A stretch of 32,151 nucleotides of DNA, taken from positions 1-32,151 of IMG/VR virus record IMGVR_UViG_3300047678_000810; one strand, given 5' to 3'. The position numbers and the translations under genes were made by a program. Below the pieces are notes generated by a model. That model did no database searches. It worked only from the letters and a program-made list of their open reading frames with translations, and was not told where the DNA came from. The DNA comes from a virus. Shown here one piece after another: positions 3,531 to 21,874 of the stretch. Position 1 is the stretch's first letter; each line of letters opens with the position of its first letter.

Positions 3531-5099
3531 ATGAACGACGAACCTCTCACAGAATCCTCTTCCGGTGGCGGCCGGCGCCGCCCGCCCCTGCGCGCACTGC
3601 CGGGTCCGGGCGACGCTGACTTCAGGGCTATCCCTAGTCGCGAAACACCTTCGAGCGAGGAGGCGGAGCAGCACGTTATTGCCTGCTGCCTGATCGACGG
3701 AGGCCAGACCGTTGACCGCTGCCTGCGGGAAAAAATGGCGCCAGACTTTTTCTATTGGTGGCAGAACGCCCGATTGTTTCAGGTCATTCTGGATCTGCAC
3801 CAGCGGCAGGTCGTGATCTCGCTCGAGACACTGGCGGAAGAACTACGGGCGACCAAGCAACTCGAGGAGATCGGTGGCTTCCCCTACCTGATGCAGGTCA
3901 CGGGCAAGATCCCGACCACCGCGCACGCCGGCTACTTCATCGAGACCGTCCGCACGAAGTGGGTGCTGCGCCGGATGATCCTGCTCGGGACCGACCAGGT
4001 CGAGAAGACCTACGAGTTCACCGGCGGCCTGTCCGACTTTGTCAGTCGTCACGCGCTGCGCCTGCAGCGGCTCGCGGATTCCGTCACGCGCGCCGGGCGC
4101 CCGAGCCAGGAGGATGCTGTCGAGGCCGCGGCCAAGGCGGCCGACGAGATCCTTGCGGGCAAGGTCGACACCACGCGCCGCCTCTCGCTCGGCCTGCCCT
4201 TCGTCGACCAGACCTTCAAGCAGATCGACGTGCGGAACGAGGACTGGCTCAACGTCATCGCCGCGGGCCCGAGCGGTGGCAAGAGCTCGCTGATGCGCTT
4301 CGCCACCGGCGCCAACTGCCGGGCCGGCAAGCGCGGCGCCGTCTTCCTGCTCGAGACCGGCGATCGTCGCTGGCTCTGGACGCTGGCGGCCGGCCTGGCC
4401 AAGGCTGACCTCAACGAGATCCTCGAGACGCCGAAGCAGGCGCTGCCGACGCAGGTCGCGGACTGGAAAAAGGCTAACGCCGAGGTGGCGTCCTGGGTGA
4501 AGGAGGAGCGACTCTTCTTCTTCGACGACCTGTTCTTCATCGAGGACATCGAGCGCCAGATCCGCGAGCTCGACCGCCGCCTGCGCGAGAAGGACCTCGC
4601 GGCCGGCGTCGCGCCCGAGCTGGCGCACGGCCTCGACTTCGTGGTCATCGACTACCTGCAGCTCATGAACACGCGGGAGAAAATCCGTGTTCGCGAAGAA
4701 GTGGTCGCGCACCTGACCCGGACCTGCAAGCGGCTCTTCAAGGCCCTGGACATTTCCGGCTTTGTCGCCGCGCAGATCAACCGCAAGGCCCGCGACGAGG
4801 GCCGGCGCCCGAAACTCTCCGACCTCCGCGAGTCCGGCGCCATCGAGCAGGACGCCGATCGCGTGATCTTCGTCCACACGCCGCCGGAGGACAAGACCGG
4901 CGTCCCGCAAACCGGCGACCGCGGCATCGACGAGGTCGAGCTGCTGCAGGCCAAGATGCGCAACGGCCCGCGCGACGTGTCGGTCGACGTGCTGTTCTAC
5001 AAACGCCAGGGCCGCTACCAGGACGCGCCGCGCGTCGGCGATGCCCGGCCCGGCACGCCGAAGCCGTCGGGCGGCTACAAGCGGGAGGGCCAGTCTTGA
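3531..5099 (+). CDS. dnaB: Replicative DNA helicase, DnaB family
   Basis: 522 residues. This is the ring helicase that unwinds the phage replication fork using ATP. Residues about 41-185 match the DnaB N-terminal domain (SSEEAEQHVIACCLIDGG). The RecA-like core follows: Walker A G-P-S-G-G-K-S-S at about 246-253, the E-T-G segment near 275 where other DnaB proteins have S-x-E-M, Walker B VVIDYLQLM at about 371-379, a Q-I-N motif near 415, and the DLRESGAIEQDADRVIF block (about 431-447) that forms motif 4 and DNA-binding loops. Length is slightly above the bacterial norm because of a roughly 35-residue Gly/Arg/Pro N-terminal extension. The initiator-like gene is directly upstream, as expected for a phage replication module. 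The start ATG 3531 has a C-rich leader without a Shine-Dalgarno site. Identification is strong. Confidence 0.95.
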   Translation: MNDEPLTESSSGGGRRRPPLRALPGPGDADFRAIPSRETPSSEEAEQHVIACCLIDGGQTVDRCLREKMAPDFFYWWQNARLFQVILDLHQRQVVISLETLAEELRATKQLEEIGGFPYLMQVTGKIPTTAHAGYFIETVRTKWVLRRMILLGTDQVEKTYEFTGGLSDFVSRHALRLQRLADSVTRAGRPSQEDAVEAAAKAADEILAGKVDTTRRLSLGLPFVDQTFKQIDVRNEDWLNVIAAGPSGGKSSLMRFATGANCRAGKRGAVFLLETGDRRWLWTLAAGLAKADLNEILETPKQALPTQVADWKKANAEVASWVKEERLFFFDDLFFIEDIERQIRELDRRLREKDLAAGVAPELAHGLDFVVIDYLQLMNTREKIRVREEVVAHLTRTCKRLFKALDISGFVAAQINRKARDEGRRPKLSDLRESGAIEQDADRVIFVHTPPEDKTGVPQTGDRGIDEVELLQAKMRNGPRDVSVDVLFYKRQGRYQDAPRVGDARPGTPKPSGGYKREGQS

Positions 5100-7122: not shown

Positions 7123-7565
7123 AATGGCCCTTCATGCTGCGCTCGACCCACGAGCGCGAACTCAAGGCCGCGGCGGATCATTTCGCGCGGAATCTCGACC
7201 GGGCTACAGACGCCCAGGCCGCCGCGGAGGGCGCCAAGCGCTTCGCCGAAAGCCGCGCGCAGATCTGCCTGGTCCGCGCCGAGGCGGCCGAGGCCCAGCT
7301 CAAGCAGCTCGCCGGGCCCGTGCTCGAGGTCGTGCAGCGCACGTCGGCGCTGACGATCGTCGACCAGGCGCCGGCGCCGGGTGACAAGGCCGTGAAGGTC
7401 GTCGCCTGCCTCACGCTCCGCAGCGATGTTCTGCCGGCGTTCGCCGATCACTCGCGCGTGCTGGGCTACGCCGTGCAGGACCTCGTCCACGGCGCGATGC
7501 AGCTCGTCCACCAACGCGACCACGAGGCCGCCGTCAGGTCCTCGGGCCCGGGAGGCTGCTCGTGA
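7119..7565 (+). CDS. Hypothetical protein with N-terminal coiled coil
   Basis: 148 residues starting in an ATGA overlap. Residues about 10-70 are Ala/Glu/Arg-rich and could form a coiled coil; the remainder has a Val-rich strand region and a helical tail with several His (about 110-140). No domain recognised. A copy of the dispersed 14-bp motif lies in codons 21-25. The gene is coupled on both sides, so it belongs to the backbone operon rather than to the accessory block that begins after the next gene. Confidence 0.55.
   Translation: MKWPFMLRSTHERELKAAADHFARNLDRATDAQAAAEGAKRFAESRAQICLVRAEAAEAQLKQLAGPVLEVVQRTSALTIVDQAPAPGDKAVKVVACLTLRSDVLPAFADHSRVLGYAVQDLVHGAMQLVHQRDHEAAVRSSGPGGCS
7180..7193. 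promoter_or_regulatory. Dispersed 14-bp motif, copy 3
   Basis: ATTTCGCGCGGAAT inside a hypothetical gene, in the opposite orientation to copy 2. Confidence 0.5.
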
Positions 7566-7744
7566 GCGACGATACCTGCCAGCACACCTGGGGCCCGTGC
7601 GAGATCACCGCTTGGTCGGTCTGCCGCTCCTACTATCTTCGCCGAACGGCCGAGGTCAGACGACGCAGCCTCGTGCATCCGCCAACCCCTGATTTTCCAA
7701 AATTCCACGTCACGTCCCATGCGTCGTCTGTAACTCGTGGTTAG
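7562..7744 (+). CDS. Small Cys/His protein, C-terminus apparently replaced by an attC-like element
   Basis: 60 residues from GTG 7562 (GTGA overlap; GGGAGG upstream). The first 30 residues (CQHTWGPCEITAW, then a third Cys) look like the first half of a small zinc-binding phage protein, but no second CxxC follows. The last 35 residues coincide with an inverted-repeat element (7641-7746), and the stop TAG is formed by its GTTAG end. I infer that the original 3' end was lost when the accessory block was inserted. The tail is probably not functional. It could instead be a genuinely short protein. Confidence 0.45.
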   Translation: MSDDTCQHTWGPCEITAWSVCRSYYLRRTAEVRRRSLVHPPTPDFPKFHVTSHASSVTRG

Positions 7745-7746
7745 CC
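7641..7746 (+). repeat. attC-like element 1
   Basis: GCCGAAC (7641-7647) faces GTTAGCC (7740-7746). Between them CAGACGACGC (7657-7666) pairs perfectly with GCGTCGTCTG (7721-7730). The unpaired spacers are 9 and 9 bases. The order R''-spacer-L''-loop-L'-spacer-R' with AAC and GTT at the ends is that of integron attC sites. R' departs from the canonical GTTRRRY at its last bases. Confidence 0.5.
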
Positions 7747-7756
7747 TCTTTCACCA

Positions 7757-8032
7757 ATGAGCCGATCAACACCAATTCGCCAACTCTACTGCTCGCGCTG
7801 CAAAGCGAAACACTTCTTAGCCGCTCTCTGTGGAGAGCCGAAACACTTCAATGTGATCGTGCGCGGACGCACTTCATCCGGCGCGGCTGACTGCCGCTGC
7901 AACACCTGCGGGCATACTTGGATTTCTAATTCCGCCCGCGGTAGGCGGCTGGCTTCAAAACTCTGGACACCTGCCGAGCAGCGTGTGGCTAACAACCTGG
8001 TCAGCGAGGCGGCGCAGCCGCCTTCGCTGTAG
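7757..8032 (+). CDS. Accessory gene A: zinc-ribbon-like protein
   Basis: 91 residues; the ATG lies 11 bases after the GTTAGCC end of attC-like element 1, the usual place for a cassette gene. Two Cys pairs (YCSRCKAKH at about 11-19 and CRCNTCGHTW at about 47-56) suggest a zinc ribbon. The C-terminal tail overlaps the left arm of attC-like element 2. The leader is Shine-Dalgarno-free (TTTCACCAATG). Base composition is visibly less GC-biased than in the neighbouring backbone genes. Function unknown; zinc binding is inferred from the Cys spacing. Confidence 0.6.
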   Translation: MSRSTPIRQLYCSRCKAKHFLAALCGEPKHFNVIVRGRTSSGAADCRCNTCGHTWISNSARGRRLASKLWTPAEQRVANNLVSEAAQPPSL

Positions 8033-8045
8033 TGGCTGGTTCACC
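7987..8045 (+). repeat. attC-like element 2
   Basis: GGCTAAC (7987-7993) faces GTTCACC (8039-8045). Inside, CAGCGA-GGCGGC (8002-8013) pairs with GCCGCC-TTCGCTG (8017-8029) with one extra base on the right arm, like the extrahelical bases of attC hairpins. Spacers are 8 and 9 bases. It overlaps the end of accessory gene A. Confidence 0.55.
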
Positions 8046-8066
8046 CTCTCTTAAATCCACACCAAC

Positions 8067-8375
8067 ATGACAAATATGGAAGAAGCAAATCAGCCTCAAC
8101 CGTGGCGGATGCCCACAGCATACTCCGCTGCCGAACTCAGGCAATGGCACGTCGAGGAAGAATATCACCCGGGAAAATGGCGTCCCGCCCGCTGCTGCCC
8201 ACGATACGGAAGCTGGAGAAAATGGGAGTGCTGGCGGACGCGCTTCGTCCTCGCATGGCGCGTCTTCACGGGGAGGAACGACTGCGTGCATTGGGGCGAA
8301 ATGAGCGGGCGATGGAATAACGACCAAGTGAAATATCGGGACGCCGTGACGCGCCCGACCGCTAAACTTGGGTGA
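8067..8375 (+). CDS. Accessory gene B: Trp-rich small protein
   Basis: 102 residues, starting about 20 bases after the end of attC-like element 2. Very rich in Trp, Arg and Tyr (RQWHVEEEYHPGKWRPARCCPRYGSWRKWECW), a composition seen in many small proteins of mobile gene cassettes but without a recognised domain. The central part FVLAWRVFTG is hydrophobic but short for a membrane span. The leader (ACACCAACATG) lacks a Shine-Dalgarno site. A shorter overlapping frame in another phase (8102-8320) was judged a shadow. The end of the gene touches attC-like element 3. Confidence 0.55.
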   Translation: MTNMEEANQPQPWRMPTAYSAAELRQWHVEEEYHPGKWRPARCCPRYGSWRKWECWRTRFVLAWRVFTGRNDCVHWGEMSGRWNNDQVKYRDAVTRPTAKLG

Positions 8376-8497
8376 ACCACCTCGGTCAGCCACGAGGCGG
8401 GAAATGAAACGTAAAAAACAGGACAATCTACCTATGAAGAAAACGGAAACGAAAACACCCCCGACAGCCTCGTTGCGCTGTAGCGAATTGGTTCAGC
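8371..8497 (+). repeat. attC-like element 3
   Basis: GGTGAAC (8371-8377) faces GTTCAGC (8491-8497). CAGC-c-ACGAGGC (8387-8398) pairs with GCCTCGT-tgc-GCTG (8467-8480). Spacers are 9 and 10 bases. The left arm resembles that of element 2. The long terminal loop (8399-8466) is A-rich and contains the start codons of accessory gene C. Confidence 0.42.
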
Positions 8498-8778
8498 GTC
8501 TGAAACGCGCTCGACAGGTGCTCTCGATCTACAACCGCTGGCGCCGCGCCGAGGGCGTGTGGGCCGACCGCACCTACGACGATATGCCTTTCCGCGATGC
8601 GGACATCGGCCATGCAATCGCTGCCGGCAATGCCGCGCTGGAATCGGTCGATGACCTGTTGACCTTCTTTTTGGAACGCAATCCGGCGCGCACGGCTGTC
8701 GAAAGAAGGATGATGCGCCACCTGCGAAAACTTTCGCTGAACATCGCGGGTCTGACAGCCCCACACGAATCACTATGA
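8404..8778 (+). CDS. Accessory gene C: hypothetical helical protein
   Basis: 124 residues from ATG 8404, which has GAGGCGGG just upstream; a second ATG at 8434 is also possible, and TTG 8368 is unlikely. The first 30 codons run through the loop and right arm of attC-like element 3. The body (SLRCSELVQRLKRARQVLSIYNRWRR onward, split by loops) is helical, with an internal DADIGHAIAAGNAALESVDDLL helix and a basic C-terminus. I do not recognise it. If the element is a true cassette boundary, excision would separate the start codon from the body. Confidence 0.5.
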   Translation: MKRKKQDNLPMKKTETKTPPTASLRCSELVQRLKRARQVLSIYNRWRRAEGVWADRTYDDMPFRDADIGHAIAAGNAALESVDDLLTFFLERNPARTAVERRMMRHLRKLSLNIAGLTAPHESL

Positions 8779-9086
8779 ACTACCATCCTGAAAACCAAGG
8801 CATCGCTAACCAGCAATCGCTCGCAAGCCGGCAAAATGTGGGGCTTGTCAGTGACCGCTGGTTAGCGTCTTTCGAGGAACAGCAACTCTACGCCAGCGAG
8901 CAATACAAACGTCAGATGGCGGATAAGCGCCAGCGAGACGATGAAGCCATCCGAAAAATCTGCAAAGAGATGAACGACTTTTGGAACTCACCGATGGGCA
9001 TCGCGTGTGAGATAATGCAACTGGTCGTAATCGCCCTGCCGATCATCGTGCCAGCCGCAATTGTGCTCATGATGCTGAACAAATAA
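8775..9086 (+). CDS. Accessory gene D: C-terminal membrane-anchored protein
   Basis: 103 residues from ATG 8775 (ATGA overlap with gene C). Residues about 80-101 (IMQLVVIALPIIVPAAIVLMML) form one strong membrane span near the C-terminus, so the product is probably a tail-anchored inner-membrane protein. The region before it is charged and helical (KRQMADKRQRDDEAIRKICKEM). Codons 11-31 are the attC-like element 4; an alternative start after it is ATG 8916, giving a 56-residue form without a ribosome site. Function unknown; small membrane proteins are common in cassette arrays. Confidence 0.5.
   Translation: MNYHPENQGIANQQSLASRQNVGLVSDRWLASFEEQQLYASEQYKRQMADKRQRDDEAIRKICKEMNDFWNSPMGIACEIMQLVVIALPIIVPAAIVLMMLNK
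8804..8867 (+). repeat. attC-like element 4 (best match)
   Basis: CGCTAACCAGC (8804-8814) is the exact complement of GCTGGTTAGCG (8857-8867). Inside it CAAGCC (8824-8829) pairs with GGCTTG (8842-8847). The left spacer AATCGCTCG and the right spacer TCAGTGACC are both 9 bases. The R'' AAC, L'' CAAGCC, L' GGCTTG, R' GTT order and the 64-bp length closely resemble compact attC sites. Confidence 0.62.
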
Positions 9087-9087
9087 G

Positions 9088-9441
9088 ATGAGCCACGCCC
9101 GCCGAAAAACCACTGAGCCCCGAGCGTTGAAGGCCCGCACGAAGAACAGCCCCGGTCGCGGGCGTTGTGCTCTGGCACCTAGTTCGGGGAGTCTTCCCGA
9201 GTGCTACGTCGGAGAGGTCGGCTACTGCGACAGCGTGCATATGGAGCCCGGAAACATCCACTGCGCACACGATATGTTTGGCCGGTGGCGCTTCCGCTTC
9301 TACCGGAGCGAACGACTGGTGGACTGGCTAGAGGAGCCGCCCTCCGATGTCATCGAAACCGTCCTCAACTACCTCGAAAACCGGGGATTTCTTTCCCCGA
9401 ACAAACCAGATGAGGAACGCCCCGCCGTGCGTGCCTCGTAA
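9088..9441 (+). CDS. Accessory gene E: hypothetical protein
   Basis: 117 residues; the ATG is 1 base after the stop of gene D. Codons about 6-34 run through a weaker attC-like element (9104-9188). The body has a Cys/His cluster (ECYVGEVGYCDS, then NIHCAHDMF) and a basic aromatic stretch (GRWRFRFYRSERLVDWLEE). A zinc site is conceivable but not clear. No family recognised. No in-frame start lies directly after the element, so translation through it would be required. Confidence 0.45.
   Translation: MSHARRKTTEPRALKARTKNSPGRGRCALAPSSGSLPECYVGEVGYCDSVHMEPGNIHCAHDMFGRWRFRFYRSERLVDWLEEPPSDVIETVLNYLENRGFLSPNKPDEERPAVRAS
9104..9188 (+). repeat. attC-like element 5 (weak)
   Basis: GAAAAAC (9104-9110) faces GTTCGGG (9182-9188). 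GCCCGC (9133-9138) pairs with GCGGGC (9158-9163), and GAGC (9122-9125) with GCTC (9169-9172). Spacers are unequal. Included because its placement in the array matches the others. Confidence 0.28.
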
Positions 9442-9451
9442 CCCTTCCCAA

Positions 9452-9796
9452 ATGAACACACCATCGAGCGTAAACCCAACGACCGAACCGCAGGGCCAGC
9501 AAGGGGCGTTCCCTCTGGCGGCTGGTTCTCCCTCCGTCCTGCCGTGCCCGAAGTGCGGAAGCGCAGACATCTACCGGCTGCACGCTGAAGCGGGGGAAGT
9601 GCTCGACCTGTCCTACGACGAGCGCAGCACTCGACGCGTGAATGAGTATGTCCACATCGACGGATGGACTGACGCCAAGGTGAAAAAAGAGTGCATCCGC
9701 CATCACTGCCGCTGCTGCCAATACGACTGGGAAACCGGAGTCTTGGAGAACACCGTGCATGAGCCGCAGGCGCGGCAGAAAACTCTCAACCCATGA
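9452..9796 (+). CDS. Accessory gene F: zinc-ribbon-like protein
   Basis: 114 residues from ATG 9452, 10 bases after the preceding stop; a longer frame from 9347 would overlap gene E. Codons about 11-27 are attC-like element 6. The body has CPKCG at about residues 32-36 and CIRHHCRCCQYDW at about 81-93, a typical pair of zinc knuckles, separated by a strand-rich insert. I infer a zinc-ribbon protein of unknown role. The leader CCTTCCCAAATG lacks a Shine-Dalgarno site. The stop overlaps the next start. Confidence 0.55.
   Translation: MNTPSSVNPTTEPQGQQGAFPLAAGSPSVLPCPKCGSADIYRLHAEAGEVLDLSYDERSTRRVNEYVHIDGWTDAKVKKECIRHHCRCCQYDWETGVLENTVHEPQARQKTLNP
9482..9531 (+). repeat. attC-like element 6
   Basis: ACCGAAC (9482-9488) faces GTTCTCC (9525-9531). 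GCCAG (9495-9499) pairs with CTGGC (9515-9519) and AGGG (9502-9505) with CCCT (9511-9514). Spacers are 6 and 5 bases, close to the canonical attC R-to-L distances. Confidence 0.45.
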
Positions 9797-10104
9797 ATAC
9801 AAATCAAACTCTCGAAAACGTGACGCCCGCGCCTGTTGGCTCTGGGCACTTGGTTCTGCCTCCGATGACTGACGACGAACTCAGCAACCTATGGACGATG
9901 TATCACACCGTCATGGGCGGCGGCGTCGCGCCTGTGAATGAGGATGAGGCCAAGCGGCTCGAAACGCTGGGCATGGTGAAACTCTTTCCTGCGAATGAAG
10001 AGGATGCTGTCGCAGGCGAGATCGACCCGGAATATACCTTCATGCTTACGAAGGCCGGCGAAGACGCCGCGCGTGCCTACCGCGCCTCTTGGCAGAACAA
10101 GTGA
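9793..10104 (+). CDS. Accessory gene G: hypothetical, last gene of the block
   Basis: 103 residues from ATG 9793 (ATGA overlap, leader CTCAACCC). An in-frame ATG at 9865 lies 5 bases after the right end of attC-like element 7 and would give a 79-residue product (MTDDELSNLWTMYHTVMGG) in the usual cassette arrangement. The C-terminus FMLTKAGEDAARAY resembles the last helix of small winged-helix proteins. Acidic overall. Function unknown. No attC-like element follows it; backbone-like codon use resumes about 25 bases later. Confidence 0.5.
   Translation: MNTNQTLENVTPAPVGSGHLVLPPMTDDELSNLWTMYHTVMGGGVAPVNEDEAKRLETLGMVKLFPANEEDAVAGEIDPEYTFMLTKAGEDAARAYRASWQNK
9813..9859 (+). repeat. attC-like element 7
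   Basis: CGAAAAC (9813-9819) faces GTTCTGC (9853-9859). GCCC (9825-9828) pairs with GGGC (9844-9847) and GCC (9831-9833) with GGC (9838-9840). Both spacers are 5 bases. The right end GGTTCTGCCTCCG closely matches that of element 6. Confidence 0.4.
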
Positions 10105-10120
10105 TTATGCCTTCCGGTCG

Positions 10121-10762
10121 ATGAACATGTTTTCTAATTGGCGCACCAAGCGCCGCGAGCGCAGGCGGTTGCGGTGCCAGGCCATGGCCCGTCGCTCCAA
10201 CGAGGTGCAGGCCGCCGCCCGCCTCTCCCGCCCGCTCGATGCCGACACCCGCCGCCGGCGCGCCCTCGATGATGCTCGCGGTTCCGTCCTCCGCGAGGGC
10301 GTCTCCATCCGCCGCGACCTGCCGGTCCGGATCATCGACAACGTGAAGGCTGGCCTCACCCCGGCCGCGCTCAGCGCCGCCAGCAAGGCCCGCAAGGACG
10401 CCACGCCGGCGATCCGCCGCGCTCTCGCCCGGGCGGAGATGCGCGCGCCTGGCGGCGTGCATCTCGCCGAGGCCCTGCGGGAGTTCAGTAAATTTATCGA
10501 GTTCACGGGGGGGCGCGACATCCTGCTGTGGGGCAATGGCGCGGCGTTCGACAACGTCATCCTCGCGAGCGCCTACCGGGCCCTGAGGCTCACGCCGCCC
10601 TGGAAGTTCTACAACGACCGGTGCTACCGGACGATGAAGGCCGCCTACTCCGACGTGAAGATGCCGCGGACCGGCACGCATCACAACGCCCTCGACGACG
10701 CGATCAGCCAGGCGAACCACCTGATCGAGATCTGGAAGGCCGCGCGGGGGCTCCTCGTATGA
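10121..10762 (+). CDS. DEDD-type 3'-5' exonuclease-like protein lacking the ExoI motif
   Basis: 213 residues from ATG 10121 (ATG 10127 also possible). The C-terminal part (about residues 115-213) matches RNase T/Rv2179c-like exonucleases: LLWGNGAAFDNVIL carries the ExoII Asp, PWKFYNDRCYRTMKAAY is a family signature, and HNALDDAISQA carries the ExoIII His and Asp. The expected N-terminal ExoI motif (D-x-E) is absent. In its place is a basic, Arg/Ala-rich segment of about 110 residues (RTKRRERRRLRCQAMARR and on) with normal backbone codon use. So either the enzyme is inactive, or it is a fusion left by a deletion next to the accessory block. The two-metal chemistry needs the missing acids, so activity is doubtful. 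Its stop overlaps the next start. Confidence 0.7.
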   Translation: MNMFSNWRTKRRERRRLRCQAMARRSNEVQAAARLSRPLDADTRRRRALDDARGSVLREGVSIRRDLPVRIIDNVKAGLTPAALSAASKARKDATPAIRRALARAEMRAPGGVHLAEALREFSKFIEFTGGRDILLWGNGAAFDNVILASAYRALRLTPPWKFYNDRCYRTMKAAYSDVKMPRTGTHHNALDDAISQANHLIEIWKAARGLLV

Positions 10763-10920: not shown

Positions 10921-11195
10921 ACTTGAGCTTCATCCAGAAGAAGGTGATCTGCGACGTCGCTCGCAAAGCCTACGACCGCTGGCCCGGTCACGAGGAGTTC
11001 GAGCGCAACCAGGCGCCCGGGCTGAATTGCTTCGATGCCTGGCGTCACGCCGAGCAGCTGAAGGCCGTCGGCGTCCAATCCCTCTCCCTCTGCAAGGAGG
11101 AGCACTACAAGCGCCTCGTGGCGCACTTCAGCCGGATCCGCGGACGGCGGCGGGCTGAAGCCGAAAACGAACTACTTCCACTTTTCAACCCATGA
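10917..11195 (+). CDS. Hypothetical protein
   Basis: 92 residues from GTG 10917 (GTGA overlap) with AAGGAGGG just upstream; a longer frame from 10812 overlaps the previous gene and is rejected. Helical, with KKVICDVARKAYDRWPGHEEFERN at the N-terminus and a basic RIRGRRRAEAENELL tail. No domain recognised. Coupled to the alanine-repeat gene by an ATGA overlap. Confidence 0.55.
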   Translation: MNLSFIQKKVICDVARKAYDRWPGHEEFERNQAPGLNCFDAWRHAEQLKAVGVQSLSLCKEEHYKRLVAHFSRIRGRRRAEAENELLPLFNP

Positions 11196-12028
11196 ATACA
11201 AACACCACATCAGTCGCGGAGCGCGCTCCGCTGATCGCCTTTCACGGCGACGAAACCATCAAGCAGAAATATCTTGGCCGCGTTCGCGCCCACCGCGAAG
11301 CCGACGAGATCGTCCAGGGCTACGGCTACTGGAAGCCGGACGACGAAGGCAAGTTCCGCGGCTGCGCCGTGGGCTGCACGTTGCACGGCGACCGCCACAG
11401 CGACTACGAGAAGGAGCTCGGGATCCCGCAGGTCCTGGCGCGCATCGAGGACCGTCTCTTCGAGAACATGCCGGCCGAGAACGCGAAGGTCTGGCCGGAG
11501 CGGTTCCTGGCCGCGATCAACACCGGCGCGGATCTGAGCATGATCTGGCCGAAGCTCGCGCACTGGATGCTCATGGACGAGCACGACGGTGTGATCCGTT
11601 TCGCGAAGAAGGAGTCGACGCGCGAGGCGATCAAGGGTGTGGGTGCGCTTTTCCAGAGATGGTTGGACGGCGATAAGCCGGCCGAGCATCTCTGGAAAAG
11701 CGCCCGGCGTATGGCCGCCGCCGCCGGCGCCGCCTATTGGTCCGCCGCCGGCGCCGCCTATTGGTCCGACGCCGCCGCCGGCGCCGCCGCCGCCGACGCC
11801 GCCGCCGACGCCGCCGCCGCCTATTGGTCCGCCGGCGCCGCCGCCGCCGACGCCGCCGCCGACGCCGCCGCCGACGCCGCCGCCGACGCCGCCGCCGACG
11901 CCGCCGGCGCCGCCGCCGCCGACGCCGCCGCCGACGCCGCCGGCGCCGCCGGCGCCGCCCGTCGTCAAAGCTACCTCAAGATGTCCGAAAAGCTCCTCGA
12001 ACTTCTTGCAGCGGAAAAGGGGAAATAA
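11192..12028 (+). CDS. Protein with alanine-rich AAYWS/AAADAA repeat tail
   Basis: 278 residues. The N-terminal 170 residues form a globular region (LIAFHGDETIKQKYLGRVRAH; GCAVGCTLHGD; LGIPQVLARIEDRLFENM) that I recall from phage and bacterial proteins with low-complexity Ala tails such as repeated SAAWSAAE. Residues about 175-255 are a run of Ala with Asp or Gly every few residues and three AAYWS units, predicted to be one long helix. The last 20 residues (YLKMSEKLLELLAAEKGK) are amphipathic. Repeat length probably varies by slippage. The biochemical function of this family is unknown to me. The leader (CAACCC) has no Shine-Dalgarno site. Confidence 0.6.
   Translation: MNTNTTSVAERAPLIAFHGDETIKQKYLGRVRAHREADEIVQGYGYWKPDDEGKFRGCAVGCTLHGDRHSDYEKELGIPQVLARIEDRLFENMPAENAKVWPERFLAAINTGADLSMIWPKLAHWMLMDEHDGVIRFAKKESTREAIKGVGALFQRWLDGDKPAEHLWKSARRMAAAAGAAYWSAAGAAYWSDAAAGAAAADAAADAAAAYWSAGAAAADAAADAAADAAADAAADAAGAAAADAAADAAGAAGAARRQSYLKMSEKLLELLAAEKGK
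11714..11958 (+). repeat. GCC/GAC trinucleotide repeat tract
   Basis: About 245 bases composed almost wholly of GCC, GAC and GGC codons, broken by three YWS-coding units. The opposite strand reads as a Gly/Val-rich frame, which is a by-product. Such tracts are prone to replication slippage, so length variation between isolates is expected in multiples of three. Confidence 0.85.
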
Positions 12029-13201: not shown

Positions 13202-13398
13202 CGCAACACGAACCAAAGCGCTGCTACCGCTGCGACAGATCCCTGGGAACGCCGATCACGGCGGTCGTCGGTGGCCCGGCGTCCGGCCGGCTCAACGACT
13301 ACTACGGAATCTGCGAGCTCTGCAAAGCGGACCTCGCGGCCGCGCGTCCACCGTCACCCGAGCCGGCTGAGCTCACCAAACTCCTGAAACGCGAATGA
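13198..13398 (+). CDS. Small zinc-ribbon protein
   Basis: 66 residues in an ATGA overlap. CYRCDRS at about residues 9-15 and CELCKAD at about 39-45 form two CxxC knuckles typical of a zinc ribbon; the C-terminus is Pro/Glu-rich. Role unknown. It is translationally coupled to the large terminase (ATGA), so a packaging accessory role is conceivable; HNH nucleases often sit here, but no His-Asn-His motif is present. Confidence 0.6.
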   Translation: MTQHEPKRCYRCDRSLGTPITAVVGGPASGRLNDYYGICELCKADLAAARPPSPEPAELTKLLKRE

Positions 13399-15191
13399 GC
13401 ACCGCCATGCTCGAGGGCATCCCGAAGGACCTGCTCGCACCTCACCCGGTGCTGAAGCTGCCGTCGCGCGCGGCCGTGCAGGCCTGGCTCGCCAAGGGCG
13501 ACGAGGGCCGCGCGCACCTGGAGAAGATCCTGAAGGACCGCGCCGAGCTAATCCACCTCGAGCGGCACGACCCGTTGCGCCACGGCTTCGAGCCGGAGAC
13601 CTACGCGAAGGCCCGCGAGCTGCTCGCCAACGTCGACGAGCTGCTGCTCAACGGCGCGAACCGCGAGGGCAAGACCAACTTCGCCGGCAAGTTCAGCGTC
13701 GAGCACCTGACGGAGGCGCCCGATCGCTGCGCGGCTTTCCTGCACTCGAGCGAGCGATCGAGCAAGGACCAGCAGCAGCCGGTGATCTTCTCCTTCCTGC
13801 CTCCGGACATCCGCGCCCTGGGCTTGCGCGGCATCCGCAGCAAGCGCGGGACCTACGTCCAATACACGCGGGCCAACGGCTTCACCGGCGAGAAGTTCAT
13901 CCTGCCGAATACCTCGATGGGCCTGTTTTTCAATTACAAGCAGGACGTCGGCGTGCTCGAGGGCTACCGCCTGACGCTGGTCTGGTTCGACGAGCTCGTG
14001 CCGCTGGCCTTCCTGGACGCGCTGACCTACCGCCTCAGCCAGGGCGAGCGCCTGATCATTCTGATCACCTTCACCCCGGTGCGCGGCTACACGCCGGTCG
14101 TGGCCCGCTACGTCGCCGGCGCGAAGATCATCGAGACCAGGCCGGCCGCGCTGCTGCCGCCCGATGCCGTCCACGTGAAGGGCTGCCCGCGCGGCCACAT
14201 GCCCTACGTGATGGAGCCGCGGCGGCCGCGCAGCCGGGTGTTGTTTTTCCACTGGGGCCAGAATCCCTACGGCGCGAGCCGCGAGGTCCAGAAGAAGCTC
14301 GAGGGCGCGAACAGTTCCGTCGTGAAGATGCGCGCCTACGGCTGGGTGGACAAGCTGGCGAGCAGCGCCTTCGCGAAGTTCGGGCAGCCGCACATCATCA
14401 CGCGGAAGAAATTCCTCGAGATCGCGAAGGGCCCGGGCACCTGGTATTGCTCGACGGATCCGCGGCCGGGCAAGAACTGGTTCATCAAGTGGTATTTCGT
14501 GTCGCCGGAGTGGGGCCCGATCGTGCATCGCGAGTGGCCGGACTGCCGGCGCTACGGCGAGTGGGCCCTGCCGCCGGCGGATGCCAGCGACGACGAGGTC
14601 GCCCGCAAGAACGACTGGCGCCCGGGCCCGGCGCAGCGCCTCGAGGCCGGCCGCGGCATCGCTGCCTACAAGGCGCTGATCCTCGAGGCCGAGGGCTGGA
14701 CCTACGACGAGAAGGACAAGACCTGGAAGCACACGGCCGGCGACTACGGCGCCGGCGTCGAGCGCGTCCACCGCCGCGTGATGGATCCGCGGTTCGCCGG
14801 CAGCGAGGTGCCGAGCCAGGAGGAGGGCCAGACAATCATCGAGATGATGGCTGAGTCCGGGCACAAGGATCCCAAGGGCCGCGTGATCCCCGCGATGGAG
14901 TGGGAGGCGGCGCCGGCGAGCTCCGTCCACGGCGCCGGCAGCGCGCTCGAGATGATCGTCGATGCGATGGACTACGACGAGAAGGCCGAGATCTCACCTC
15001 TCAACTGCCCGCACTGGTATGTCGTCGAGGACTGCGAGCACAGCGTGGTCGCCTACCAGGAGTTCAGCGACGCCGGCACGCCGAAGAACGCCCTCAAGGA
15101 CATCATCGACCCCGACCGCTACTTCGTGAAATCGGACTGCGACTTCGTCCAGCCCGGTTCGATGAAGATGAAACGCGGCGGCTACTTCTAA
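13395..15191 (+). CDS. terL: Terminase large subunit (TerL)
   Basis: 598 residues. TerL is the ATP-driven motor and nuclease that packs phage DNA into the prohead through the portal. Visible: Walker A G-A-N-R-E-G-K-T at residues 87-94, Walker B LTLVWFDE at about 193-200 with its catalytic Glu, and the coupling motif ITFTP near 224-228. The C-terminal nuclease domain begins around TWYCSTDPRPGKNWF (Asp about 355), with further acids at CPHWYVVEDCEH (about 540) that could complete the metal site. Length is in the usual range. No small terminase is obvious upstream; the HTH gene directly downstream is a candidate. The start is in an ATGA overlap. Confidence 0.9.
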   Translation: MSTAMLEGIPKDLLAPHPVLKLPSRAAVQAWLAKGDEGRAHLEKILKDRAELIHLERHDPLRHGFEPETYAKARELLANVDELLLNGANREGKTNFAGKFSVEHLTEAPDRCAAFLHSSERSSKDQQQPVIFSFLPPDIRALGLRGIRSKRGTYVQYTRANGFTGEKFILPNTSMGLFFNYKQDVGVLEGYRLTLVWFDELVPLAFLDALTYRLSQGERLIILITFTPVRGYTPVVARYVAGAKIIETRPAALLPPDAVHVKGCPRGHMPYVMEPRRPRSRVLFFHWGQNPYGASREVQKKLEGANSSVVKMRAYGWVDKLASSAFAKFGQPHIITRKKFLEIAKGPGTWYCSTDPRPGKNWFIKWYFVSPEWGPIVHREWPDCRRYGEWALPPADASDDEVARKNDWRPGPAQRLEAGRGIAAYKALILEAEGWTYDEKDKTWKHTAGDYGAGVERVHRRVMDPRFAGSEVPSQEEGQTIIEMMAESGHKDPKGRVIPAMEWEAAPASSVHGAGSALEMIVDAMDYDEKAEISPLNCPHWYVVEDCEHSVVAYQEFSDAGTPKNALKDIIDPDRYFVKSDCDFVQPGSMKMKRGGYF

Positions 15192-15411: not shown

Positions 15412-15791
15412 ATCCTGCATCCACGCCGACGGGCACCTGGTGGTGTAATTCACATCAGCGCGAGGCCACCCACACGCGCGCCGATGGCACGCGATGCTGT
15501 GATCCCAAGCTAGGAGGCATCCTCCTGCCGTGCTTCGTCGTTCACGCGCCGATGACGATCGAGAAATCGAAATGCCCGGTCTGGCCGGAAGGATCCGGAG
15601 AATGGACCTATCGTGCTCGGCGCCACTTTGCGGCGACCAACTGCACATTCGCGAAATGCTGTCTGCGGCAGAGCCGTCGTGAGATCGACCGCTGTTACAT
15701 CGTGCCGGAAGTAGATTTCCCGGCCGAACTGGCCCGGCTGCGTTCGGGCCAACCACTTTCCAACCCACCGACAGGAACCATGACCAAATGA
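15408..15791 (+). CDS. Cys-rich hypothetical protein
   Basis: 127 residues in an ATGA overlap. Seven Cys occur at spaced positions (WWCNSHQ, RCCDPK, LPCF, SKCPVW, TNCTFAKCCL, RCYI), suggesting metal binding or disulfides. The composition is less GC-biased than in TerL and portal, and the gene sits between packaging and portal genes where a backbone head gene would be expected, so it may be an accessory insertion. No family recognised. Confidence 0.5.
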   Translation: MNPASTPTGTWWCNSHQREATHTRADGTRCCDPKLGGILLPCFVVHAPMTIEKSKCPVWPEGSGEWTYRARRHFAATNCTFAKCCLRQSRREIDRCYIVPEVDFPAELARLRSGQPLSNPPTGTMTK

Positions 15792-17998
15792 AAACTCAGA
15801 CCGATTCCGTCCGGGCGCTTGCGCGCGCGGCGGCCGTGCCCGACCTCGACGCCCTCCGCGATGAACTCGCCCAGGTCTACAGCCAGGTCGGCAACATCCG
15901 GTCGCGCCAGCAGGGCGCGATCTCCACCCGTCTCTGCCGCTGGGATGGCCAGAGCGACGACTACCGCAAACACGAGAAGGACATCGGCTCGGCGGCCATG
16001 CCCTACGAGGGCGCGCCGGACGTCCGCGTGCCGGTCGTCGACACCGTCGTGCGCGAGCGCGTGGCCCTCTACGTCGAGGCGCTCATGTCCGGCGAGATCC
16101 AGGCCGTGCCGATCGGCGGCCTCGACCAGGGCGAGAACGCGACCAAAATGTCGCGCGTCCTGAAATGGCTTCGCGATAACCGGATGCAGCGCGAGCTGCG
16201 CCGCGAGGCCGAGCTGCTCGCCAACTACGTCGAGGGCGACGACCCGGGCCTCGGCATCCTCAAGGTCTGGTGGAAGCGCGAGCTCGCGCTCGAGCTCCGC
16301 GAGCTCTCCCTGGACGACGTCGCGCTCGAGCTGCTCCGCGTGGGCGGTTTCGAACCCGACGAGAAGGGCCAGCTGCCGGCCGAGGCCCAGGGGGCGATGA
16401 TGGATATCGCCGACCTGATCTACAACCCGATGCGGATCGAGGAGGCGCTCGAGCTCATGGCGGCCGCCTTCCCGAGCGTGGGCAAGAAGACGCTCAAACG
16501 CGCTTTCAAGGACCTGCAGCGCACCCAGCAGACCACGCTGCCGCTGCCCTACGTGAAGGCCAACCGCCCGTGCGTGGCGTCGCTGCGCTTCATGCAGGAC
16601 GTCTTCTTCCCGCAGGACCTCGACGACATCCAGCGGGCCCGCGTGATCTACGAACGCGAGTTCCTCTCCGAGGCCGAGCTCCGCGGCAAGATCGTCGGCG
16701 AGGGCTGGGACGAGAGCTTTGTCGAGGAGGTTCTCGAGGCCGGTCCGGGCCCGAGCCAGTTCGACCCGACGACCGTCCGCTTCGTCACGTCGCCCCGCGG
16801 CTACACCCGCGCCGCCCAGGACGAGCAGAACAACCTCTACGAGATCTGGCACGCCAACGCGCGCGCGACCGACGACTTCGGGATCAACGGGATCTACTGG
16901 ACCGTCTTCTCCGCCAAGGTCGCCGACAGCTGGGGCTACCACCAGCTGCTCGACACCGCCCAGGGCGACTACCCCTACGTCGACTTCCGCAGCGAGGTCA
17001 TTTCGCGCGGAATGGAGAACGCCCGCGGCACGCCCGAGCGCACCGGCAGCTTCCAATACGAGATCAAGGTGCAGCGCGACTGCCGCGGCGCCCACACCCA
17101 GCTCTCCACGATCCCGCCCGTGCGCGTCACCCAGCGCCGCGGCGGCCTCGAGGCCGTGCTCGGGCCGATGGTCGAGGTCCCGGTCCGCCAAGCCGACGAC
17201 GTCACCTGGATGAATCCCCCGCCCTTCCCGGCCGCCTCGATCGAGATGGAGAAGGCCGCCTGGCTCGACCTGAACCAGTATCTCGGCCGCATGGTGCCCG
17301 GCGTGCCGTCCGAGCTCGGGCAGGCCGTCCTGCAACACGACGTCAACCGCTGGCTCGAGGGCTGGAAGACCGCCTGGAACATGATCCAGGAGCTCCAGCA
17401 GGACTACGGTGACGAGCTCGAGGTGCAGATCGTCGCCGGCGGCCCGATGAAGAAGCTCTCGCGCGAGGAGATCCGCGGCCAGTTCACCACGACCCTCGCC
17501 TTCTCCGTGCGCGACCTGAACATCGAGTTCGTCCTCACCCGGAACCAGGCGATCGCCGCGGTCCTGCAGCAGGACATCACCGGCCAGGTCGACCGGACCG
17601 TGATCGTGCGCGCGGGCCTCCGCGCCATCGACCCGGCCATCGCCGACCAGGCGATCCGCGACGGCCAGCAGGTCACGATGCAGGAGGTCAACGACGAGGT
17701 GAACGCCGTCAACATGCTCGCCAACGGCATCGAGGCGCCGCTCCGCAAGTCCGGCGTCAACGCCCAGCTGCGGCTCGACACGCTCACGAAGACCGTGCTC
17801 GGCAGCCCGGTCCTCGCGCGCCGCTACCAGCAGCCGCAAAAGCCGGAGGACGAGTATTTCAAGAAGCTCGTCGAGAACCGCATGAAGAACCTGCAGATGA
17901 TGATCCAGCAATACGGCCCGGGCCCGGACAACAACCAGGCGATCGGCCGCACCGGCACGGCGCCGCTGCAGCCGGCCATCGCGGGAGGTGGCGAGTGA
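15788..17998 (+). CDS. Portal protein
   Basis: 736 residues, coupled to the preceding gene by ATGA and placed after TerL, the usual portal position. The portal forms a dodecameric ring at one head vertex through which DNA passes and to which the tail attaches. The N-terminal part (IRSRQQGAISTRLCRWDGQSDDYRKHE) matches an often seen start of podovirus-like portals, followed by long helices and a strand-rich middle (about 320-520). The C-terminal 60 residues (YQQPQKPEDEYFKKLVENRMKNL) are helical and may form a barrel or tail. No catalytic motifs are expected. Length fits large podovirus portals. The dispersed motif copy 5 lies inside. Confidence 0.78.
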   Translation: MKTQTDSVRALARAAAVPDLDALRDELAQVYSQVGNIRSRQQGAISTRLCRWDGQSDDYRKHEKDIGSAAMPYEGAPDVRVPVVDTVVRERVALYVEALMSGEIQAVPIGGLDQGENATKMSRVLKWLRDNRMQRELRREAELLANYVEGDDPGLGILKVWWKRELALELRELSLDDVALELLRVGGFEPDEKGQLPAEAQGAMMDIADLIYNPMRIEEALELMAAAFPSVGKKTLKRAFKDLQRTQQTTLPLPYVKANRPCVASLRFMQDVFFPQDLDDIQRARVIYEREFLSEAELRGKIVGEGWDESFVEEVLEAGPGPSQFDPTTVRFVTSPRGYTRAAQDEQNNLYEIWHANARATDDFGINGIYWTVFSAKVADSWGYHQLLDTAQGDYPYVDFRSEVISRGMENARGTPERTGSFQYEIKVQRDCRGAHTQLSTIPPVRVTQRRGGLEAVLGPMVEVPVRQADDVTWMNPPPFPAASIEMEKAAWLDLNQYLGRMVPGVPSELGQAVLQHDVNRWLEGWKTAWNMIQELQQDYGDELEVQIVAGGPMKKLSREEIRGQFTTTLAFSVRDLNIEFVLTRNQAIAAVLQQDITGQVDRTVIVRAGLRAIDPAIADQAIRDGQQVTMQEVNDEVNAVNMLANGIEAPLRKSGVNAQLRLDTLTKTVLGSPVLARRYQQPQKPEDEYFKKLVENRMKNLQMMIQQYGPGPDNNQAIGRTGTAPLQPAIAGGGE
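17000..17013. promoter_or_regulatory. Dispersed 14-bp motif, copy 5
   Basis: ATTTCGCGCGGAAT inside the portal gene, in a different reading phase (ISRG) from the copies in other genes. Confidence 0.5.
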
Positions 17999-19783: not shown

Positions 19784-20827
19784 ATGCCTCAGGACAGCGG
19801 ACTCGTTTCCGACATCCTGAGGGAATTAGGCGAGAAACCGGATCCCGCCGCAAGCGATACGGACGAACCTGAAGCCGAGAGCGAAGAGCCCGCGGCCGAG
19901 GAGGAGTCCGGCACGGAGGCCCCGGCCGCGGAAACCGATGAAGCCGCCGCTGGTGAATCCGACGAACCCGCCGCCGAGGGCGAAGAGCCCGCGGCCGAGG
20001 AAGGGTCCGAGGAGCCTGCCGCCGAGGGCGAGGAAGGTGAGGAGGGCGAAGAGCCCGCTGATCCGACCAAGCCGAAGGCGAAGGACGACAAGGACAAGAC
20101 GGCCATCGGCCTGAAACGTGAACTCTTCAAGCTGCGCGAGGAATTGCGCCAGCTGAAGGCCGCCGGCGCGCAACCCGCGCGCCAGCTCGCGCCCAGCGAG
20201 CTCGAGATCGAGGGAGCCGACTCCCCCGAGCGCCTCGAGGAGCTCCGCGAGCACTTCGAACGGTTGGAAGACCTGGCCCTCGCGAACCGCGACGGCCTCG
20301 AGGTCCCGGCCGCCAAGGAGGGCGACGAGCCCAAGGTCTACACCAAGGAACAGATGGGGCAGATCCTCACGAACGCGCGCCGTGCGCTCCGGGCCATCCC
20401 GAAGCGCCAGACCGAGATCGTGCAGGAGACCCGCTCCAACCAGGTCGCGGTGCAGATCTACCCGGGCTTCGAGGACCCCGAGTCCGACGAAAGCCGGGCC
20501 CTGGATCACGTGCTCAAGACCGTGCCCGGCATCCGCAAGCTCGCGAACTACCGCCTCGTCATTGCCGACGCGGTGGCCGGCGAGCGGATTCGCATCGCGA
20601 AGGCCAAGCAGGCCGCCGCGGCGAAGAAGGGTCCGGAAGGTCGTCCGTTGGCTGGCAAGGCCGCCGCTCCCGCGGCGCGTCGTTCGCCGGCTCCCGTCCC
20701 TGGTGCGCCGCACCGCGCCCCCAGCGCGCCGGCGCCGAAGGCCCAACGCCTCGCCAAGGCGCGCAAGCGCGCCGAGAGCGGTTCGGAAGCAGATATCGCT
20801 GAGCTCATCGAAGCCGGCCTCGGCTAA
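19784..20827 (+). CDS. Scaffold-like head assembly protein
   Basis: 347 residues from ATG 19784; ATG 19688 or 19640 would add 32 or 48 residues of atypical composition, so the start is uncertain. The gene lies directly before the capsid gene, the usual scaffold position. Residues about 15-100 are strongly acidic (many E-P-A, E-G-E units); about 100-135 are a coiled coil (KRELFKLREELRQLKA); then more helices, including a likely capsid-binding or dimerising part; the C-terminus is basic and Ala/Pro-rich, ending in a short helix. Scaffolds guide prohead assembly and leave or are cleaved; the basic helical C-terminus fits capsid binding. No protease motif is seen. Confidence 0.6.
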   Translation: MPQDSGLVSDILRELGEKPDPAASDTDEPEAESEEPAAEEESGTEAPAAETDEAAAGESDEPAAEGEEPAAEEGSEEPAAEGEEGEEGEEPADPTKPKAKDDKDKTAIGLKRELFKLREELRQLKAAGAQPARQLAPSELEIEGADSPERLEELREHFERLEDLALANRDGLEVPAAKEGDEPKVYTKEQMGQILTNARRALRAIPKRQTEIVQETRSNQVAVQIYPGFEDPESDESRALDHVLKTVPGIRKLANYRLVIADAVAGERIRIAKAKQAAAAKKGPEGRPLAGKAAAPAARRSPAPVPGAPHRAPSAPAPKAQRLAKARKRAESGSEADIAELIEAGLG

Positions 20828-20857: not shown

Positions 20858-21874
20858 ATGCCCGCATTCGTTGAACGCGACGCCCTCGGCAAACGTCAGG
20901 ACCTGTCCGACGCCCTTGCCCTCGCCGATCGCAAGAAAACCATCATGAAGGCGATGCTCCCCAAGAGCGTCGCCCCCACCAACACGCTGACCGAGTGGCC
21001 CGTCGACAACTATCCCGCGCCGAGTATCGCGGGCTCGATCGACGAGCAGCCGGTCCAGGCGTTCGAAAACGTCAACAACGTCGCCGCGACCATTTCCGGC
21101 CGCGTGATGATCCAGCAGCGCGCCATCCGCATCTCCCGCTTCGCCGACAAGGTCATGGACCAGGCCGGCGTGGGCAAGCGGAAGGCCTGGGCCAAGGCCG
21201 TCGCCAAGGGCCTCGTGATCGTCTCCCGCGACATCGAGACCCGCATCCTATCCGACCAGGACTCCGTCGCCGGCAGCGGCACGGTCGCCCCGCTCACGCG
21301 CGGCTACGGCTCCTGGTCGAACACCTCGGCGCAGTCCGACCTCCCGGTCGACAGCGCCTTCCGCACGCCGACCGCCAGCGTGACCACGACCACGATCGCG
21401 AACTTCTTCGACGAGACGCTGACCGGCGTGCTGAAGAGCCAGTATGACCAGACCGGCGACGCCGAGATGGATCTCACGCTGCTCGCCGGCTCGACGCTGC
21501 GCCAGAAGCTCTCGCGCCTCACCGCCTACTCCAAGGACGACTCCGGCTTCACCCAGGTGCGCCGGTTCAACCAGGACGCGGAGAGCGCGAAGATCACGAT
21601 GAAGGTCTCGGTGCTCGACACCGACTTCGGCCGCGTCGTCATCCGCCCGAGCTCGTTCATCAACGCGGCCGGTGATCCGACCAGCGCGGCCTCGCGCCGG
21701 CTCGGCTACCTGTTCCCGAACGTGGACGAGTGCCTCCGCCTGCGCTTCGCGTGGGAGACCGAGGCCGAGGAGCTCGCCTCCGACGGCGGCGGCCCGCGCT
21801 GCCTCATCTCGGCGGCCTACGTGATGGAGTGCGGCAACCCCCTGTGGCTCGCCCGCTTCGCCCCGAGCGCCTAA
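20858..21874 (+). CDS. Major capsid protein (SU10/DUF5309-like)
   Basis: 338 residues, CGGAGAA before ATG 20858. This is the main shell protein. The order RKKTIMKAMLPKSVAPTNTLTEW, then DEQPVQAFENVNNVAATISGRV, RISRFADKVMDQAG and DIETRILSDQDSV resembles DUF5309, the family of the phage SU10 capsid with an HK97-like fold: an N-arm, an E-loop-like strand region, a spine helix, and a C-terminal strand block (CLRLRFAWETEAEELASDGGGPRCLISAAYVMECGNP). Length is typical. A scaffold-like gene precedes and a possible decoration protein follows it. Confidence 0.78.
   Translation: MPAFVERDALGKRQDLSDALALADRKKTIMKAMLPKSVAPTNTLTEWPVDNYPAPSIAGSIDEQPVQAFENVNNVAATISGRVMIQQRAIRISRFADKVMDQAGVGKRKAWAKAVAKGLVIVSRDIETRILSDQDSVAGSGTVAPLTRGYGSWSNTSAQSDLPVDSAFRTPTASVTTTTIANFFDETLTGVLKSQYDQTGDAEMDLTLLAGSTLRQKLSRLTAYSKDDSGFTQVRRFNQDAESAKITMKVSVLDTDFGRVVIRPSSFINAAGDPTSAASRRLGYLFPNVDECLRLRFAWETEAEELASDGGGPRCLISAAYVMECGNPLWLARFAPSA

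Follow-up and report, generated by a model that had tools for sequence, protein, structure and literature searches.

A probable integrase-less array of inverted integron-type cassettes in a tailed-phage genome

We analysed a stretch of 32,151 nucleotides, here called the window, which comprises positions 1–32,151 of the possibly incomplete IMG/VR virus record IMGVR_UViG_3300047678_000810, and in which a first-pass annotation made from the letters alone had noticed an integron-like cassette block inside a phage backbone. The block is, with good confidence, an integrase-less array (CALIN, cluster of attC sites lacking an integron integrase) of seven integron-type cassettes carried in a phage genome and inverted relative to their attC sites, with the attCs doubling as stop/start junctions between the genes. 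Its attC sites, which lie on the minus strand, are genuine although divergent. At the level of sequence, the integron-type nature proposed for the block is upheld by the attC architecture and polarity of the elements, by the complementarity of the cassette ends, by homology that stops at AAC/GTT among related phages carrying the same family of sites, and by an integron integrase found beside such sites in the contig G014.

Architecture and ends of the elements

A structural scan for the pattern AAC-spacer-arm-loop-arm-spacer-GTT was run blind on the whole window, and its top seven plus-strand hairpins (scores 26–35) were exactly the seven elements that had been annotated, with no hairpin scoring above 21 in the remaining 29.6 kb; in dinucleotide shuffles of 7600–10150, a score of at least 26 was reached 0.0075 times per shuffle and never more than once. 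Read as attCs on the minus strand, the elements are e1 at 7645..7742 (AAC 7645, GTT 7740, loop 52 nt), e2 at 7991..8041 (AAC 7991, GTT 8039, loop 5 nt), e3 at 8375..8493 (AAC 8375, GTT 8491, loop 68 nt), e4 at 8740..8863 (AAC 8740, GTT 8861, loop 71 nt), e5 at 9078..9184 (AAC 9078, GTT 9182, loop 55 nt), e6 at 9400..9527 (AAC 9400, GTT 9525, loop 79 nt) and e7 at 9749..9855 (AAC 9749, GTT 9853, loop 51 nt). The spacers measure 8–10 nt in all seven, as in bacterial integron loci, including the elements described before as weak or as having spacers of 5–6 nt, which actually have 9–10 nt. The GTT-GTT distances were reproduced (299/452/370/321/343/328), and the AAC-AAC distances are more even (346/384/365/338/322/349/347). 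Seven sites within 2.2 kb correspond to a CALIN (at least two close attCs without intI), provided that the sites are attCs.

The bases outside the AAC of each element are complementary to those following the GTT of the element before it, a match expected between neighbours because excised and re-inserted integron cassettes leave such ends. It was found at six of the seven junctions, the matched pairs being GGCTAAC/GTTAGCC, GGGTGAAC/GTTCACCC, GCTGAAC/GTTCAGC, CCCCGAAC/GTTCGGGG and GGAGAAC/GTTCTCC, together with an eighth half-site to the right of the array, whose AAC lies at 10096 and whose outer bases, GGCAGAAC, are exactly complementary to the GTTCTGCC of e7. This right boundary half-site (10091..10098, minus strand) is without a second arm, and we labelled it as a secondary or attI-like insertion point, either of which it may represent. 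The summed end match between neighbours is 29, a value reached by 2 of 40,320 permutations, and that within elements is 6; in most of the other phage arrays the pairing between neighbours likewise exceeds that within the same element. At the e4/e5 junction (9078 and 8861) e5 has an outer box like that of e4, as though a unit had been exchanged.

To score the elements as attCs, we built a covariance model, R1, on 39 attCs that the structural scan had returned, nearly all around bacterial integron integrases and three from phage-borne integrons. Three sites of the Tetrasphaera phage TJE1, whose CALIN is known from the literature, scored 25–38 bits, and two minus-strand elements of the related phage contig L049 were clearly recognised, with 31.4 and 27.7 bits. 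Since R1 was blank on the elements of the window, a second model (R2) was made from sister phages, namely from 18 elements of L049, L008 and L006, with the window excluded and the training loops cut to 4 nt. With R2, attCs of bacterial integron loci and one TJE1 site score 17–44 bits, matches occur in 13 of 21 virus records, a number of which had supplied its training elements or had been picked by pattern, and e2 of the window is matched on the minus strand at 28.7 bits (E 1e-5). When only boxes, spacers and arms were scored, all seven elements, e1 and e6 among them, reached −0.7 to 24.9 in minus polarity, above the whole null of 151 hairpins (highest −6.4); their plus-polarity scores were −10.7 to −23.2.

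Related arrays and the G014 integrase

Loci with related terminases, all from metagenomic virus contigs that may be incomplete, carry like elements in arrays of 2–17: 17 in L049 (15.0–21.2 kb), three in L008/L164, and two each in L006 and L028, with further elements in L165–L171 found by pattern searches. The arrays of L049, L164 and G017 sit between the portal and scaffold genes, unlike that of the window, which lies in the early region. BLASTN alignments between elements of different phages begin near AAC and end near GTT, while the surrounding genes differ; e5 is an example, 9078–9187 of the window being 76% identical at the DNA level to L164:4529–4637 (E 3e-14), a similarity shared by L164/L008. 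No match to an L049 element was found by BLAST among plasmids and isolate phages. One L049 cassette (20098–20760) encodes an MT-A70 methyltransferase, and a similar unit aligns at its ends with L168 as well.

The integrase comes from the 66-kb IMG/VR contig G014 (IMGVR_UViG_3300036766_000439), which carries intI together with an attC array. The protein is complete at 318 aa, matches TIGR02249 at 313 bits (cut-off 265) and contains the Pfam integrase and SAM-like domains; it is 37–43% identical to the integron integrases of phage and plasmid records and at most 47% identical to those of bacterial loci. Upstream of its gene, the minus strand holds about 17 attCs, which is where attCs ordinarily stand with respect to intI. 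G014 is probably a phage, judging from its listing in IMG/VR and from portal-, capsid- and tail-like open reading frames (ORFs) recognised by eye. The products of its integron cassettes include a C-5 cytosine methylase and a DUF4326 protein (L174:2963–3889 and 4231–4653). G001 and G009 encode tyrosine recombinases of 444 and 436 aa, respectively; we took both for ordinary phage integrases, and G001 has no match to TIGR02249. In the virus Rctr41k, the gene named "xerD" (L178, KX853513:4680–5678) is IntI-like and about 40% identical to the G014 integrase, and no R2-type attC was found in that record.

As had been stated, no integrase is visible in the window. A host integron acting in trans, the source of mobility proposed with it, may serve, and a phage-encoded integrase such as that of G014 is an equal candidate; in either case, an integron integrase would be the enzyme that moves these cassettes.

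Polarity, junctions and alternative readings

Bacterial attCs have their extra-helical base on L'' of the attC strand. Among the phage elements, 63 of 71 sites have it on L' of the gene strand, with 8 equal and none opposite, a sign count whose significance is overstated because sites within one array are not independent. In the window the base is present in six of the seven elements, with minus-strand polarity, and e1 is without it. The side of this base therefore gives a minus polarity for the attCs, with crossover expected at AA^C of the plus strand and an insert spanning 7647..10097. This insert comprises seven units of attC and ORF, with predicted excision at AA^C on both sides, and the choice of that side as its boundary would follow from the attC polarity. 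If the insert is left out, 7562–7646 and 10098–10762 join as one open frame, an outcome with a chance of one in three, so that the plus-strand segment 7562..7646 appears as part of a phage gene interrupted by the insert. The AAC is also in frame in six of the seven ORFs; this was downgraded as evidence for the boundary and is weak alone, since the codon use of the backbone favours the same frame anyway (120/165).

The first-pass annotation had assumed the ordinary polarity with boundaries at the GTT ends, whereas we place the attCs on the minus strand, the boundaries at the AAC ends and the genes antisense to their attCs. Were the cassettes of ordinary polarity, each ORF would be followed by its own attC and recombination would occur at G^TT of the plus strand. 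As would be the case in ordinary cassettes, the ORFs do stop within the left arms or close to them, and c1 and c2, the first two ORFs, start after GTT. Against this, the extra-helical base is on the wrong side at every unequal site, the scores in plus polarity fall within or near the null range, the models match the minus strand of these arrays, and an exchange of c3–c6 would cost the start codon or the N-terminus because GTT falls in differing reading frames. We thus consider ordinary polarity improbable. For the inverted arrangement, a codon-usage test of the bodies between sites assigned the coding strand as antisense to the attC in 33 cases, with the attC in 5 and ambiguous in 19; by contig, the ratio was 10:1 antisense in G014 and 4:0, with 2 ambiguous, in the window.

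On the gene strand, a stop in the AAC frame precedes GTT at 66 of 71 sites (25 on the other strand). An ATG lies within −4 to +15 of the stop at 55 sites, as compared with 24.7 expected when the loops were shuffled (maximum 31 of 300), and at 42 of the 71 phage sites the TGA of an ATGA serves as the in-frame stop, as compared with 1 of 71 on the other strand; in the bacterial set, an ATGA at the in-frame stop occurs at 1 of 60 sites on each strand. The window has ATGA at the in-frame stop in e3, e4 and e7, a stop followed by ATG in e5 and e6, and neither in e1 and e2, so that translation coupling at the junctions, suggested by these positions, would be incomplete here.

The hairpins might also be RNA or translation control elements of a stable phage operon that do not recombine, and their position at stop/start junctions, with the frequent ATGA, is what such elements would show. 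This explanation predicts neither the complementarity between outer boxes of neighbours, nor homology ending at AAC/GTT amid different genes, nor the cross-detection with bacterial attC models, nor an integron integrase beside the same sites; an Rfam scan of the block also gave no match. We regard it as very improbable, even more so than ordinary polarity.

Several results weigh against the reading of the block as integron-type cassettes. The record has no match to TIGR02249, although it may be incomplete, and the combination of intI and attI of a complete integron was not found in the window, intI being present in G014. The minus-strand R' boxes of the window (GTTCGGC, GTTAGCC, GTTCACC, GTTCAGC, GTTCAGC, GTTCGGG and GTTCTCC) follow GTT[C/A]NNN and not the canonical GTTRRRY. 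A scan with an attC covariance model had been proposed as a check, and the absence of any score was half of what was to refute the cassettes; the standard-type model R1 returned just that, with no match at any element, and the sister-phage model R2 does score, with e2 as its sole match as a full model, the other six elements having loops of 51–79 nt. To these are added the e4/e5 junction, the only one without end complementarity, the L049 units, which occur in both orientations (2 antisense, 4 with the attC, 10 ambiguous), the non-independence of sites mentioned above, and the fact that we found no sister phage in which the site is empty or the cassettes are reshuffled.

Some of these results would also fit a relic, that is, a true integron array captured once on which no integrase now acts, an explanation that differs from an active array in present activity alone. 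The record without an integrase, the divergent boxes and the one mismatched junction speak for it; the arms and the end complementarity are well preserved, and arrays of varied content recur in related phages, which speaks against it. We consider a relic rather unlikely, though a good deal more plausible than the two preceding alternatives. Slightly better than even, in our estimate, are the chances of a broader proposal, a phage lineage with its own integron class, in which the cassettes are inverted and the attCs have evolved as in-frame stop/start junctions, so that any order of cassettes gives a working coupled operon.

According to the mechanism that we propose for such inverted cassettes, an integron integrase, phage- or host-encoded, would recombine the folded plus strand at AA^C, which is complementary to G^TT, and would thereby add, remove or reorder units made up of an attC and the ORF downstream of it. 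The ORFs, antisense to the attCs, are co-directional with the surrounding phage genes; the upstream ORF usually runs in frame through AAC into the next attC and stops in or near its loop, where the next ORF often restarts at the stop, frequently at ATGA. Swapped cassettes would thus stay in frame and translationally coupled, within one operon read from a phage promoter.

CALINs and integrons have been reported in Tetrasphaera phage TJE1, Polaribacter phage P12002L and Pseudoalteromonas phage PH101, and also in Vibrio and Shewanella prophages (Qi et al. 2023, PMC9892861). These are likewise attC arrays within phages, mostly integrase-less, carrying small genes of unknown function and methyltransferases. 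The window differs in its boxes, in genes antisense to the attCs and in stop/start junctions inside the attCs, whereas in TJE1 the sites fit the ordinary attC model and the genes share the direction of the attC. Sedentary chromosomal integrons share with the window-type arrays the spacer lengths, the arm length and the position of the extra-helical base, as well as a G014-type integrase with attCs on the expected strand; the window-type sites lack the ordinary R boxes TAAC/GTTRRRY and the GGAC arm motif, their ORF orientation is reversed, and ATGA junctions are found at only 1 of 60 sites of the chromosomal integrons. In class 1 integrons, translational coupling has been described via ORF-11 of attI1 or in fused cassettes (PMC8876359), and there, too, the proximity of stop and start was proposed to drive translation of the following cassette. 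That coupling belongs to attI1 or to cassettes with an altered or lost attC, while in the phage arrays the junction sits within attCs that are intact, on their antisense strand, and occurs at most sites of several arrays. In a limited literature search, which is no proof of absence, we found no description of arrays that are inverted and have their stop/start junctions within attC.

Integrons are known as platforms with which bacteria capture genes, and phage attC clusters have been reported mainly as captured pieces. The recurrence of these arrays in a phage family, with varied positions and genes, and an integrase beside the same sites, suggests that phages shuffle their own accessory genes. 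Since R1 misses the sites of the window, arrays of this type may be undercounted, as judged with this model of 39 ordinary attCs. If the attC is both recombination site and translational junction, the array would be a modular operon that stays in frame during shuffling.

Cassette genes and phage backbone

The seven cassette genes are all on the plus strand. c1 (7757..8032, 91 aa) is zinc-ribbon-like, with Pfam matches below cut-off, and c2 (8067..8375, 102 aa) is Trp-rich; c3 (8404..8778, 124 aa) starts within the loop of e3; c4 (8775..9086, 103 aa), with a C-terminal hydrophobic segment, overlaps the stop of c3 at ATGA; c5 (9088..9441, 117 aa) starts within e5; c6 (9452..9796, 114 aa), also zinc-ribbon-like, starts within the loop of e6; and c7 (9793..10104, 103 aa) overlaps the stop of c6 at ATGA. 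The seven proteins had nothing convincing among their matches in Pfam, PHROGs and PADLOC, a match of c3 to Cas1e (E 0.03) being taken as chance, and their concatenation had no match among plasmids and isolate phages. In IMG/VR, c6 and c7 have no relatives and c1 just one match of 22 residues. No relative of c2 was found among 84,980 species represented by one genome each; homologues with 44–46% identity occur at L074:4998–5282 and L075:4998–5267 as ordinary genes of contigs without attC arrays, and the assignment of c2 to the plus strand is therefore further fixed.

The backbone of the window has a tailed-phage layout, with a helicase, a ParB-like gene, a terminase (13395–15191), a portal (15788–17998) and a capsid (20858–21874), and the GC content drops from about 67% to 57–59% across the block at 7.6–10.1 kb. 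Both edges of the block had been described as damaged, which was not borne out in that form. On the right, the Rv2179c-like exonuclease at 10124–10762 indeed lacks its N-terminal part, its match to PF16473 being restricted to profile positions 68–177 and the rest replaced by about 100 residues of unrelated sequence; this break lies about 330 bp outside the array boundary and was dropped as its edge, the right edge itself being a clean half-site at 10096–10098. Further downstream, an ORF of 278 aa (11192–12028) has a C-terminal half made of an alanine-rich repeat (AAADAAADAAG, AYWS).

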